Assembly: GCF_026240095.1 (NCBI RefSeq) | Contig: NZ_JAPIVG010000004.1 | Coordinates: forward strand, 186,001-250,000 | From: Pedobacter sandarakinus | GTDB lineage: Bacteria; Bacteroidota; Bacteroidia; Sphingobacteriales; Sphingobacteriaceae | DNA length: 64,000 nt | Reading direction: 5' to 3' | In this document: piece by piece, positions 31,091-47,819 of the stretch | Position numbering within the stretch: position 1 is the first letter of the stretch | Layout of the letters: each line of letters starts with the position of its first letter | The notes under the pieces: generated by a model | The model's database searches: none | What the model was told of the DNA's origin: nothing | Seen by the model: only the letters and a program-made list of their open reading frames with translations | Program-made: the position numbers and the translations under genes

Positions 31091-31342
31091 TCAATTTTCC
31101 TCAATGGAAATAAATTTCAATACCTGGGTTTCTATATTTAGAAAAGCAATTTGCTGCTCATCGGTTTCGAAAGCCCCGCTGTACGTTTCAATCTTTTTTA
31201 ACTTCCTGTCATACTTTCCCTAAATTGGAAGAAGGTGTACTTCAGCATCACAGCTTATTCAGGGTCGCTACAATAAAAAAGTATTTTCACTCCCATCGGG
31301 TTTATTCAGCAATGTAAGTGATAAATACCCACTCTCCCACAT
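31091..31342 (-). pseudogene. Remnant of an unidentified coding sequence
   Basis: Reading one frame on the minus strand from 31342 to the TGA at 31091-31093 gives 84 codons of protein-like sequence: WESGYLSLTLLNKPDGSENTF, then ISCDAEVHLLPI, then KLKKIETYSGAFETDEQ and LNIETQVLKFISIEEN. It is interrupted by in-frame TAG (31268-31270), TGA (31259-31261) and TAG (31220-31222). The preserved frame across several stops points to a decayed gene end, not chance. I do not recognise the family. It lies just upstream of dxr and leaves no functional start. Confidence 0.6.
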
Positions 31343-41199: not shown

Positions 41200-42780
41200 C
41201 TATCGAAATTTTTTCATTGCCGTCCAAAGTTTTTCGTCCATATCATAAACATCCGGACGGTATTGAATGCGATCATTTTCTGCCCATGCAGTAAAATAGG
41301 TAATAATTAGAGGAACGGGTTTCTTCGGACCAAACCAGGCAGGCTTAAGTTTGAAAGTTTTAGTTGTATCTGCTTTTGCGGCCAAACGTTTTTTATACCA
41401 TTTACTACGGGTAGTATCTACAGGTGGCAAATCTACCTCTGCCCTAAGCTTATCGTAAGTATAATCATCGTTAACCAACTTTTCTGCAAGTTCGAGTGGC
41501 TTCTCTACGCGTACGCACCCATGACTGATGGCCCGGTTGGCTAAACCAAATCCACTTTTATTATTTGTATCGTGAAGGTAGATGCTGGAACTATTATCGA
41601 AAATAAACTTGAATTTCCCTAAAGCATTTCCCCCTCCAGAGCCTTGTTTAAATTTAAATGGTAACTTATCTCTTGTGTAACGATTCCAATTGATGGTATC
41701 AGGCTCGCCAATCAACTTGTCTTTGTAATAAACATTAATGTTGCTATTAGAAAGATAATAAGGGTCTTTCCGAGCCATCCAATAAATTTCACTTTGGGCA
41801 ATACTTACCGGAATATTCCATATTGGATTAGCCTGTATGGCATTAATTTTACTCACTAAGAGCGGCGTTTCATGATTCTTAGGCTTATCATCTAAGTTAC
41901 CAGATTTCACAAAAGTTTTAAGCTTCTCATCATAGCCGTTTTCCCGCTTTCCACCTACACAAACTTTCATGCTGATAATGGTGTCTTGGTCATCAAGCCA
42001 AGTAAGTCTAAAATCAGGAATATTAACTTGTACAAAGTTGTTTCCAGAAACTGGCATTTTCCACCTGAACCGTTCCATGTTCAAGGAAAGAATTCGCTTT
42101 TCCTGAGCGCCACTTGCTTTTAAAAATGCAGCCTGAAGCGCCTTATATTGGAGGGATTTTGGTTCAGCAGCCTTTAATGAATCTATAAGATTTTCGGTGG
42201 CAAGGCGACTAGCCATGCCTGCACTATCCGGGCGCTTAACTTTTATATAATATCTGGCGAAAATATTTCTAGGGTTCACCAGTCCGTAGCGCATAAAATT
42301 AGTGTAATTTAGATAAGCATTTGCGCTCAAAACCTCCAGTCTGGCAATAACAGGATATGCTTCAGCAACAGTTTTAAAGTGGTTAGCATTTAAGGTATCT
42401 AACAGCGATTGAATCTCTTCCGTATCGAATACAGCTGGATTAATGCCATGTCTTCTACTATTTTGCAGATAAGAGGTCAGCGAATCAAGCTGTCCGTCAA
42501 TCAAAAATTTGCTTACAAATTCAGGTTCATTATTATTGCCAGCATAAAAGTTCTTTATCGTTTTAGGGTTGATAAAATGATTAGCGTGCTGGGCAAATAT
42601 TTTGGTAAAAACGCTATCGTAAGCAAGCGTATCAAAGTCTTTATAAATTTTATTTTGGTAATGCTCTGCTAAAATTTTTCCAATTTCTGGGGGCGAATTA
42701 AACCAGTTACAGGCAGAAATGGTAATGATAAAGGGTATAAGGATGTATCGTAAGTTCTTCAACACGTAGGTATTTAACAC
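41200..42780 (-). CDS. YcbB-type L,D-transpeptidase, lipoprotein
   Basis: 526 residues. The N-terminus has a lipoprotein signal (FIITISAC). A helical scaffold domain (~40-260) precedes the YkuD catalytic domain with SHGCVRV and Cys422. Such enzymes form 3-3 cross-links in peptidoglycan or attach proteins to it. The frame starts at GTG 42780; GTG 42765 gives a shorter signal and is about as likely. It is divergent from the his operon, whose promoter is only ~80 bases away. A small NTF2-like gene follows it. Confidence 0.92.
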   Translation of the reverse strand: MLNTYVLKNLRYILIPFIITISACNWFNSPPEIGKILAEHYQNKIYKDFDTLAYDSVFTKIFAQHANHFINPKTIKNFYAGNNNEPEFVSKFLIDGQLDSLTSYLQNSRRHGINPAVFDTEEIQSLLDTLNANHFKTVAEAYPVIARLEVLSANAYLNYTNFMRYGLVNPRNIFARYYIKVKRPDSAGMASRLATENLIDSLKAAEPKSLQYKALQAAFLKASGAQEKRILSLNMERFRWKMPVSGNNFVQVNIPDFRLTWLDDQDTIISMKVCVGGKRENGYDEKLKTFVKSGNLDDKPKNHETPLLVSKINAIQANPIWNIPVSIAQSEIYWMARKDPYYLSNSNINVYYKDKLIGEPDTINWNRYTRDKLPFKFKQGSGGGNALGKFKFIFDNSSSIYLHDTNNKSGFGLANRAISHGCVRVEKPLELAEKLVNDDYTYDKLRAEVDLPPVDTTRSKWYKKRLAAKADTTKTFKLKPAWFGPKKPVPLIITYFTAWAENDRIQYRPDVYDMDEKLWTAMKKFR

Positions 42781-42837: not shown

Positions 42838-42867
42838 TTTGATTTCCAGTTTCAAACACTATATTTG
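42838..42867 (+). promoter_or_regulatory. Promoter of the histidine operon
   Basis: TTTG (42838-42841) and TATATTTG (42860-42867) match the Bacteroidota -33 and -7 elements with an 18-base spacer. Transcription would start near 42874, about 40 bases before the leader peptide. Confidence 0.7.
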
Positions 42868-42912
42868 CCGACGCTAGTCAGCTAAAGGATTGATACTGGC
42901 AGAAATAAATTT

Positions 42913-42960
42913 ATGAATTTAACTTTGAACCATCACTTACATTTACACCATCGCCGATAG
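42913..42960 (+). CDS. hisL: His operon leader peptide
   Basis: A 15-codon frame, MNLTLNHHLHLHHRR, ending in TAG. Five of 15 residues are His, in a cluster. It lies between the operon promoter and a terminator-like hairpin upstream of hisG. This is the standard layout of a ribosome-mediated attenuator: shortage of charged His-tRNA stalls the ribosome in the leader. The frame is too short and too His-rich to be chance in this position. Confidence 0.85.
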   Translation: MNLTLNHHLHLHHRR

Positions 42961-42965
42961 GCGAT
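42950..42965 (+). promoter_or_regulatory. Leader hairpin overlapping the leader stop
   Basis: ATCGCC (42950-42955) pairs with GGCGAT (42960-42965) around a GATA loop. It covers the leader's last codons and TAG. A ribosome that finishes the leader would block it, and one stalled at the His codons might not, so it may be the pausing or switch element. Confidence 0.5.
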
Positions 42966-42976
42966 ATGATATGTTT

Positions 42977-43000
42977 GTTTTGTACTTCAAAACTTTTTTT
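42977..43000 (+). terminator. Attenuator terminator before hisG
   Basis: GTTTTG (42977-42982) pairs with CAAAAC (42988-42993), a five-base loop, followed by seven T. It lies between the leader peptide and hisG, 38 bases before the start. I see no clear mutually exclusive antiterminator pairing. Confidence 0.65.
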
Positions 43001-43038
43001 CCGTAAAATTATTTTCTGTTCACTCTATATTCAATACT

Positions 43039-43890
43039 TTGAAAACACTCAAAATTGCTATCCAAAAATCGGGTAGGTTAAACGAAAAATCTGTAGAAAT
43101 ATTAAAGAACTGTGGTCTTTCTTTCGAGAATTATAAGAGCTCACTAATTTCAACTGTCCAAAATTTTCCTTTGGAAATTCTTTTTCTTCGAGATGATGAT
43201 ATCCCAGAATATGTACAAGATGGCATCGCCGACTTGGGGATTGTTGGGGAAAACGTTATCACTGAAACTAAGGCTGGGGTGGAATATCTACAGCGTTTAG
43301 GTTTCGGAAAATGCACCCTAAAAATAGCTGTGCAAACCGGAAGCGAAATTCAAAATCTGGAAGATTTAAACGGGAAGGCAATCGCCACTTCTTATCCTGT
43401 AATACTCGAAAAATTCTTGACTGAAAAAGGAATAAAATCAGAAATCAGAACCATCTCCGGTTCGGTAGAAATTGGACCTGGCTTGGGGTTAAGCGACGCC
43501 ATTTTTGACATTGTTTCTACAGGCGGAACGTTGAAAAGTAATGGCCTGAAACCTTTCGCAGATGTGATGCAATCGGAAGCTGTTTTAATCGGAAATAAAT
43601 CCATTTTAGATAACCCGGAAGTTGCAGAATTGTTGCAAAGAATTCGTTCGGTTTTAAGTGCCAAATCGAATAAATATGTCGTGCTAAATGTTTCGAAAGA
43701 TAATTTACAAAAAGTAGTTGATTTACTACCCGGGGTTAAAAGTCCGACGGTGGTTCCGCTCTATGAACCCAACTGGGTTGCGGTACATTCTGTAATTGCC
43801 GAAGCCGATTTTTGGGATAAAATAAACAGTCTAAAAGCAGCTGGCGCTGAAGGCATTTTAGTAATGCCAATTGAGAAGATTATTACTTAA
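43039..43890 (+). CDS. hisG: ATP phosphoribosyltransferase HisG (long form)
   Basis: 283 residues, starting at TTG 43039 (MKTLKIAIQKSGRLNEKS by translation). This is the long HisG with a C-terminal regulatory ACT-like domain (~205-283), so no HisZ is needed and feedback by histidine is expected. The phosphoribosyl-pyrophosphate loop lies at ~155-180, around LGLSDAIFDIVSTGGTLKSNGL. It catalyses the first committed step of histidine synthesis. It is the first structural gene after the attenuator. Confidence 0.96.
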   Translation: MKTLKIAIQKSGRLNEKSVEILKNCGLSFENYKSSLISTVQNFPLEILFLRDDDIPEYVQDGIADLGIVGENVITETKAGVEYLQRLGFGKCTLKIAVQTGSEIQNLEDLNGKAIATSYPVILEKFLTEKGIKSEIRTISGSVEIGPGLGLSDAIFDIVSTGGTLKSNGLKPFADVMQSEAVLIGNKSILDNPEVAELLQRIRSVLSAKSNKYVVLNVSKDNLQKVVDLLPGVKSPTVVPLYEPNWVAVHSVIAEADFWDKINSLKAAGAEGILVMPIEKIIT

Positions 43891-47486: not shown

Positions 47487-47819
47487 AAATAACAAAGGCG
47501 AAACCGCCGATGAATAACGAAAACTTTATTTTTTACCAAAGCTTGAAAACATTTTCCGTAAGCTAATTTTAAAGGACTTGCAACGGAAAATCGGTTTAAT
47601 TTGCGGGTGATTGTGAAGATTTCATTTGAAATGGAGAACCTGGTTAAATAAACCCGATAGCAGTGGAAAGCTCCCGATTTTTCTTCGGGACTTGAAACGA
47701 ATAGCGGGGCTGCAATGGCCATAAAAAACTGACATTCGTTTTCAGATGTTATAAATAAATTAATTAACCGGCGGGTGATGGACTTTTGTTCTGGAGCCTA
47801 ATAAGAAACACCAAAAAAA
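47487..47819. other. Gap within the his operon with a repeat-like element
   Basis: 333 bases between hisB and hisH, unlike the 1-60-base gaps elsewhere in the operon. The core (47653-47710) contains TCCCGA (47672-47677) paired with TCGGGA (47685-47690), flanked by CCCGATAGC and AATAGCGGGG, so it can form a two-part palindrome of the kind seen in dispersed extragenic repeats. No plausible gene is present; a 79-codon minus-strand frame over it looks accidental. Confidence 0.45.
47653..47710. repeat. Candidate dispersed palindromic repeat
   Basis: An imperfect palindrome with outer CCCG/CGGG and inner TCCCGA/TCGGGA stems around a T-rich loop. Its form matches repetitive extragenic elements of Pedobacter-type genomes as I recall them; a single copy is seen in this window. 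Confidence 0.4.

Follow-up and report, generated by a model that had tools for sequence, protein, structure and literature searches.

The stretch of DNA analysed here (the window) comprises 64,000 nucleotides from Pedobacter sandarakinus and carries a his operon. hisG is located at 43039-43890 on the forward (+) strand and has a predicted TTG start, according to the NCBIfam model TIGR00070 and to alignment of the first codons. The eight genes behind the leader are hisG, hisD, hisC, hisB, hisH, hisA, hisF and hisIE, all scoring above the NCBIfam cut-offs, and the HisG protein is 98% identical in three named Pedobacter records, with P. rhodius heading the list. A divergent gene on the reverse strand (41200-42780) resembles L,D-transpeptidase genes with an NCBIfam score below the cut-off, and its upstream region is common to the his promoter. 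Of note, the window contains two matches to the Flavo-1 RNA (RF01705), one inside the his operon, where it separates hisB from hisH (47646-47715, +), and one at 31168-31307 (-).

The region upstream of hisG contains several features, all on the + strand. A predicted -7 promoter box of the Bacteroidota type, TATATTTG, lies at 42860-42867, and in 86 of 88 own-genus loci the same or nearly the same box precedes the leader by 35-51 nt, L049 and L068 being cases in which the leader or the box was mis-called. The call relied on the -7/-33 consensus, and both the his promoter and its transcription start are predictions from sequence. The leader ORF (42913-42960; ATG at 42913, TAG at 42958-42960) encodes the peptide MNLTLNHHLHLHHRR. 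Its stop codon is spanned by hairpin H1 (ATCGCC-GATA-GGCGAT, 42950-42965), which is followed by hairpin H2 (GTTTTG-TACTT-CAAAAC, arms D and E, 42977-42993) and a run of seven T residues (42994-43000). Thus, the elements listed by an earlier sequence-only reading, i.e. a promoter, a 15-residue leader with five His codons, a hairpin over its stop codon and a T7-tailed hairpin ahead of hisG, are all present.

Conservation of the leader was assessed with the regions preceding hisG in 88 loci of the own genus, 50 of other genera in the same family and 22 of other families in the same class (L089-L110, fetched out of 28 genomes of the class in which hisG was matched). Named records were added to this set and mostly represented the same loci again; an order-level search returned 61 genomes, all of the same family, and one own-genus genome (G040) yielded no hisG match. 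A His-rich ORF precedes hisG in every one of the 88 loci of the own genus and, with a single exception, in the remaining family loci. A permissive search for His-rich ORFs covered 240 loci, with named duplicates counted in, and detected a leader in 239 of them, L207 being the exception; among the class loci the matches in L098, L101 and L108 look spurious. The core HHxHxHHR is present in most Pedobacter loci, while the position of the leader stop varies from the H1 loop to just upstream of H2. The leader codons, whose lack of conservation would have refuted the earlier reading, are thus retained, and sensing of histidyl-tRNA by this His-codon leader, as judged from sequence conservation, is well supported.

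For the structural analyses a list of 142 family loci was compiled (L001-L088, L191-L240, L168, L172, L176 and L187). L207 (leaderless), L049 and L068 (leader or promoter mis-called) as well as L197, L209, L212, L213, L214, L224 and L230 (promoter unrecognised) were dropped and identical pairs merged, leaving 121 loci as the base set of the fold, T-run and null analyses. The H2 finder was negative in 11 of these, and L085, in which H2 was mis-found, was removed, resulting in 109 loci. Among the negatives, H2 is visible by eye with a different loop in L005, L014, L193 and L223; in L191, L192, L199, L219, L221, L226 and L176 a His-rich leader is present and H2 is absent by finder and by eye, and these seven loci possibly have another architecture. 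Ribosome simulations and openness calculations omit L205, L231, L232, L233, L176 and L193, which have a distant hisG or an unclear element. Two alignments were used: A1 consists of 40 Pedobacter sequences with less than 93% mutual identity, and A2 of 25 of 39 sequences from other genera, chosen without Mucilaginibacter-like, distant-hisG or H2-less loci and therefore biased to loci in which the pairing P1 (see below) is visible.

Conserved hairpins and two further pairings

Both hairpins are conserved. All six pairs of H1 are kept in 40/40 non-redundant Pedobacter sequences, and compensatory changes occur in other genera. The H2 stem is paired in 99.6% of the alignment cells in Pedobacter and is kept with compensatory changes in both the Pedobacter and the other-genus alignments, and the UAC that opens its loop is nearly invariant among the loci listed. 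In the window, H2 has a predicted energy of -2.9 kcal/mol and contains two G-C pairs. Its end is separated from hisG by 43-57 nt in 76 Pedobacter loci, a tight spacing when compared to the terminators of the class loci, which end 12-113 nt before hisG. In L205, L231, L232 and L233 the leader, H1 and H2 are kept, and extra sequence places the hisG ATG 85-296 nt past H2.

When the window leader was folded without constraints (z-score -2.47), a long rod with H1 at its tip was obtained, which includes two further pairings. In the first one, P1, the 5' UTR extending into the leader start codon (42882-42915) pairs with the region upstream of and over the hisG TTG (43001-43042). In the second one, segment A (42923-42930, codons 4-6 of the leader) provides an alternative partner for the 3' arm of H2, with 42924-42929 pairing to 42986-42991 (A:E). 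Two other candidates noticed by eye only, a helix between the 5' arm of H2 and the hisG start and a kissing interaction between the H2 loop and the His codons, fail in other lineages and were rejected.

RNAalifold, when unaided, predicts H1 and H2 only; P1 required partner-swap tests. Among 35 representatives the own partners of P1 yielded -12.3 kcal/mol on average, as compared to a mean of -8.8 for permuted partners; the best of 5000 permutations reached -10.7, and none was as low as the own pairing. Individually, 14 of the 35 rank below 0.05, and in four (L176, L221, L231, L239) P1 is unsupported, the own partner being no better than half of the others. For A:E the corresponding values are -6.1 versus -3.6 kcal/mol (sd 0.35), and 0/20000 permutations were as good (27 representatives). 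In six of the 27 (L037, L042, L083, L084, L086, L087) the best duplex of A involves the bases just downstream of H2 and not the arm.

The alignments (MAFFT) point in the same direction. The rod including H1 has 86.4% of cells paired in Pedobacter versus at most 49.0% when the strands are slid, with 42 double-change cells; in other genera 80.1% are paired versus at most 44.7%, with double changes in 12 of 25 pairs. The two helices of P1 alone reach 85.7% and 66.9% in Pedobacter and 78.3% and 54.3% in other genera. The P1 and A:E columns were chosen by hand from rows of the same alignments, which biases the percentages upward and is why slide and shuffle controls accompany them. For the whole structure in Pedobacter, two of five measures did not exceed shuffled alignments, namely double-change pairs (288/500) and pair types (415/500). 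Against shuffles of the 3' strand, P1 ranked at or below 0.05 in 16/30, 32/49 and 12/42 loci of three groups; the dinucleotide shuffles revert to plain shuffling where no path exists. Finally, A:E was compared with a synonymous-codon null. In Pedobacter the means were -5.1 versus -2.5, and 8 of 51 sequences had p<0.05; in other genera A:E was weakly favoured (-6.9 versus -5.8; 4/30 with p<0.05), and there the leader peptide itself fixes much of the pairing.

Ribosome position and the hisG start

Stalling was simulated by making the ribosome footprint unpairable in loci with a located H2. In Pedobacter, mean H2 formation was 0.08 in the free RNA, 0.92 with a ribosome stalled at the first His codon and 0.13 with the ribosome at the stop codon; in other genera the values were 0.09, 0.84 and 0.13, respectively, and in the window 0.01, 0.99 and 0.53. 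Hence the fold depends on ribosome position in silico, as in a translational attenuator. In 30 chosen loci, mean free-state H2 rose from 0.10 to 0.40 upon synonymous randomisation of only the codons before the first His codon and to 0.22 upon shuffling of the 5' UTR. Taken together, A:E and H2 very probably represent alternative folds, and the two folds are computationally well supported. Two observations count against the switch proposed below. In a codon scan of the window, H2 was at least 0.89 with the A site at any of codons 2-15, so that the model tells an occupied from an empty leader and not the His codons specifically, and in L083, L087 and L088 H2 is already at 0.68-0.89 in the free state.

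How such a switch would act on hisG was addressed by calculating the accessibility of its start. In the free state, the stretch between about -36 and -19 relative to hisG is for the most part paired in Pedobacter, and the same applies, in the window's clade, to the six bases that precede the hisG start. With some exceptions, P1 thus provides a conserved pairing predicted to occlude the downstream start. According to the fold model, which ignores the bulk of the ribosome, P1 stays closed when a single ribosome is stalled at the first His codon: mean openness from -20 to +10 was the same in the free and the single-stall state (0.48/0.48 in Pedobacter, 0.63/0.63 elsewhere). The bases upstream of hisG become accessible when a ribosome occupies the leader start or a second one queues, and with a queued ribosome mean openness was 0.59 in Pedobacter and 0.64 elsewhere.

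Based on these data we propose the following model. When histidine is plentiful, the ribosome would clear the leader; segment A would then engage the 3' arm of H2, and P1 would form between the 5' UTR and the start region of hisG. The resulting long rod, capped by H1, would mask the leader start together with the stretch immediately ahead of hisG (off). Under a shortage of histidyl-tRNA, the ribosome would halt on the first His codons and cover A, and because A is covered, H2 would replace A:E. The rod would lose its middle, P1 would be weakened, or blocked by one or more ribosomes sitting on the leader start, and translation of hisG would become possible (on). We infer the on/off sign, repression by P1 and opening of P1 through stalling. 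Control of hisG translation is favoured by the spacing between H2 and hisG, by the start codons, as residue 1 of HisG aligns with a TTG or GTG codon in 88/88 Pedobacter loci and 44 of 54 other family loci, and by the available text of a study on Flavobacterium johnsoniae, which reports that structure in the start-codon region tunes initiation in a phylum without Shine-Dalgarno sites (PMC6847099). Other findings speak against it: in the model a single stalled ribosome does not change the openness around the hisG start and a queued one raises it little, hisG lies 85-296 nt past H2 in 4 of 33 other-genus loci, P1 in other genera is mostly upstream of -12 and off the start codon, the window's clade does have a T-run, and in that clade a queued second ribosome leaves the first six hisG bases more paired (0.52 to 0.20). 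On balance, a ribosome-sensing His leader that switches hisG translation, and does so other than through an intrinsic terminator, has slightly less than an even chance of being correct in our estimation.

The same two folds may instead act elsewhere, by way of Rho access, RNA decay or a protein reading the H2 loop, with P1 being a scaffold that holds A and E close to each other. The nearly invariant UAC of the loop and the persistence of P1 in both modelled states would fit such a role, but the 3' strand of P1 is located just ahead of hisG and the spacing of H2 to hisG is tight in Pedobacter. We regard this explanation as unlikely.

Possible terminator-type attenuation at his, and attenuators elsewhere

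The sequence-only reading had taken H2 and its T7 tail for a terminator. This interpretation was examined first and was set aside because the T-run is mostly unconserved, because H2 is a weak hairpin and because the sign comes out wrong, H2 being predicted to form during starvation. The T-run is kept mainly in the window's clade, as at least five T residues follow H2 in 26 of 28 loci of this clade, in 12 of 48 other Pedobacter loci and in 2 of 33 loci from other genera. A consensus terminator scan demanding at least three G-C pairs did not report H2 in the window, and in the 121 family loci this strict scan produced eight matches, all at H1. When only two G-C pairs were demanded, 89 of the 121 loci were accepted, the window's H2 included, so a loose criterion would label H2 a terminator. 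As in his-type transcription attenuators, the leader is rich in the regulated amino acid. However, there is no family-wide intrinsic terminator between leader and first gene, and no antiterminator that is favoured by stalling and faces the 5' arm of a terminator, since the competitor takes the 3' arm. In Rfam 15, no family matches the leader at gathering scores; two matches (E 0.76 and 0.97) are far under gathering and concern unrelated families, and a match of the T-box type, as expected for a T-box riboswitch, is absent.

Relatives of this bacterium provide the contrasting picture. Of the 22 loci from other families of the class, 19 carry a terminator, chosen by eye, whose energy lies between -10.6 and -23.0 kcal/mol and which has a T-rich tail (exceptions L101, L102 and L108), and the strict scan reported 10 of 19 class loci in the set without L098, L101 and L108. 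A candidate antiterminator against the 5' arm, of -9.7 kcal/mol or better, is present in 16 of the 19 loci with a terminator chosen by eye, a count obtained with no control. The own genome contributes a further example: upstream of a trpE-like gene (locus L242, contig C30) a WLW leader peptide, MISNIHTWLWQGNSKKDCAGCL, precedes a classical-looking trp attenuator with a terminator of -19.6 kcal/mol and a possible antiterminator of -14.8 kcal/mol. A short search at ilvD and at a second trpE-like locus of this genome revealed no convincing leader. In view of the class loci and the own trp leader, this bacterium and its relatives appear to possess attenuators of the terminator type, but at his these are not seen in a recognisable conserved form.

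Classical transcription attenuation could still operate in the window's clade, where H2 and T7 would be a weak terminator, with readthrough when histidine is short. The T-runs of this clade, the acceptance of H2 by the two-G-C-pair scan and the rule of terminator-type attenuators in the other families looked at and at trp of the own genome are in line with this idea. The energy of H2, by contrast, falls far short of the class terminators, and outside of the clade the T-run is mostly lost while the hairpin is retained. Moreover, H2 is predicted to peak in the starved state, and in transcripts ending just after the T-run (28 loci) it formed to 0.82 when stalled, 0.12 when free and 0.59 at the stop codon. 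We consider this mechanism improbable. That the His-rich upstream ORF has no regulatory role and that the pairings arise by chance is hardly credible: the sequence is AU-rich and RNAalifold misses P1 and A:E, but the partner-swap, slide and shuffle controls argue against chance pairing, and the leader is retained in nearly all hisG loci examined.

Comparative folding of Pedobacter his leaders, which the earlier reading had proposed as a check, confirmed both hairpins; the T-run is kept mainly in the window's clade. Its statement that a clear antiterminator is missing is right for the enteric type facing the 5' arm, but overlooked the competitor A:E as well as P1. Its suspicion that the switch may differ from the enteric one agrees with our results, as the competing segment A targets the 3' arm of H2, and this pairing disappears from the modelled fold once a ribosome stalls.

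Relation to known leader-peptide systems

A further-reaching reading, to which we give somewhat less than an even chance, is that the family has swapped a terminator-type his attenuator for a terminator-free, Shine-Dalgarno-independent translational attenuator, in which the 5' end would lock the hisG start and a ribosome held at His codons would unlock it through a small anti-lock hairpin. If true, this would provide a mode of amino-acid attenuation for a phylum without Shine-Dalgarno initiation, and would demonstrate that a terminator-based switch can become translation-based while the sensor peptide remains unchanged. The question is directly testable, because the trp leader of the own genome and the sister families represent built-in controls. 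Annotations of weak hairpins followed by T-runs in Bacteroidota need comparative support.

The enteric his attenuator has a leader peptide with His codons and alternative folds set by ribosome position. It shares with the present system the His leader before the first his gene and folds chosen by the ribosome; however, here a conserved intrinsic terminator and an Rfam match are lacking, and in the second hairpin it is the 3' arm, not the 5' arm, that the competitor takes up. The class loci (L089-L110) likewise have a His-rich leader before hisG, but differ by G-C-rich terminators with T-rich tails in 19 of 22 cases. The erm and cat translational attenuators resemble the proposed mechanism in that a stalled leader ribosome refolds the RNA and frees a downstream start. 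They differ in that stalling is antibiotic-induced, the Shine-Dalgarno sequence is sequestered and His codons are not involved.

The architecture was not found described in a search of full-text literature, the scope of which excluded most subscription journals. For Flavobacterium psychrophilum, the accessible portion of one report presents strong indications that operons for amino acids are preceded by leader-peptide attenuators, and describes a conserved structured 5' element ahead of hisG in Flavobacteriaceae, which by its description is comparable to the region studied here in being structured, conserved and located before hisG (PMC9723704). A map of Bacteroides thetaiotaomicron mentions leader-like small ORFs, the word histidine being absent from its available text (PMC7366714), and the available parts of two further papers contain no Bacteroidota his case (PMC4833913, PMC8632094). 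The nearest idea found is the LEU element before leuA in Actinobacteria, which, according to the part of the paper at hand, comprises a leader ORF and a base helix over the Shine-Dalgarno box (PMC1262725). Both systems thus have a leader ORF and a base helix covering the downstream start. In the LEU element, the Shine-Dalgarno box is paired by the Leu codons themselves, and its authors also propose a pseudoknot (PMC1262725), whereas at his the 5' UTR is predicted to pair with a start region lacking a Shine-Dalgarno sequence and the switch would consist of A:E versus H2. We read the his leader described here as a Sphingobacteriaceae variant of leader-peptide attenuation that most likely acts on hisG translation.
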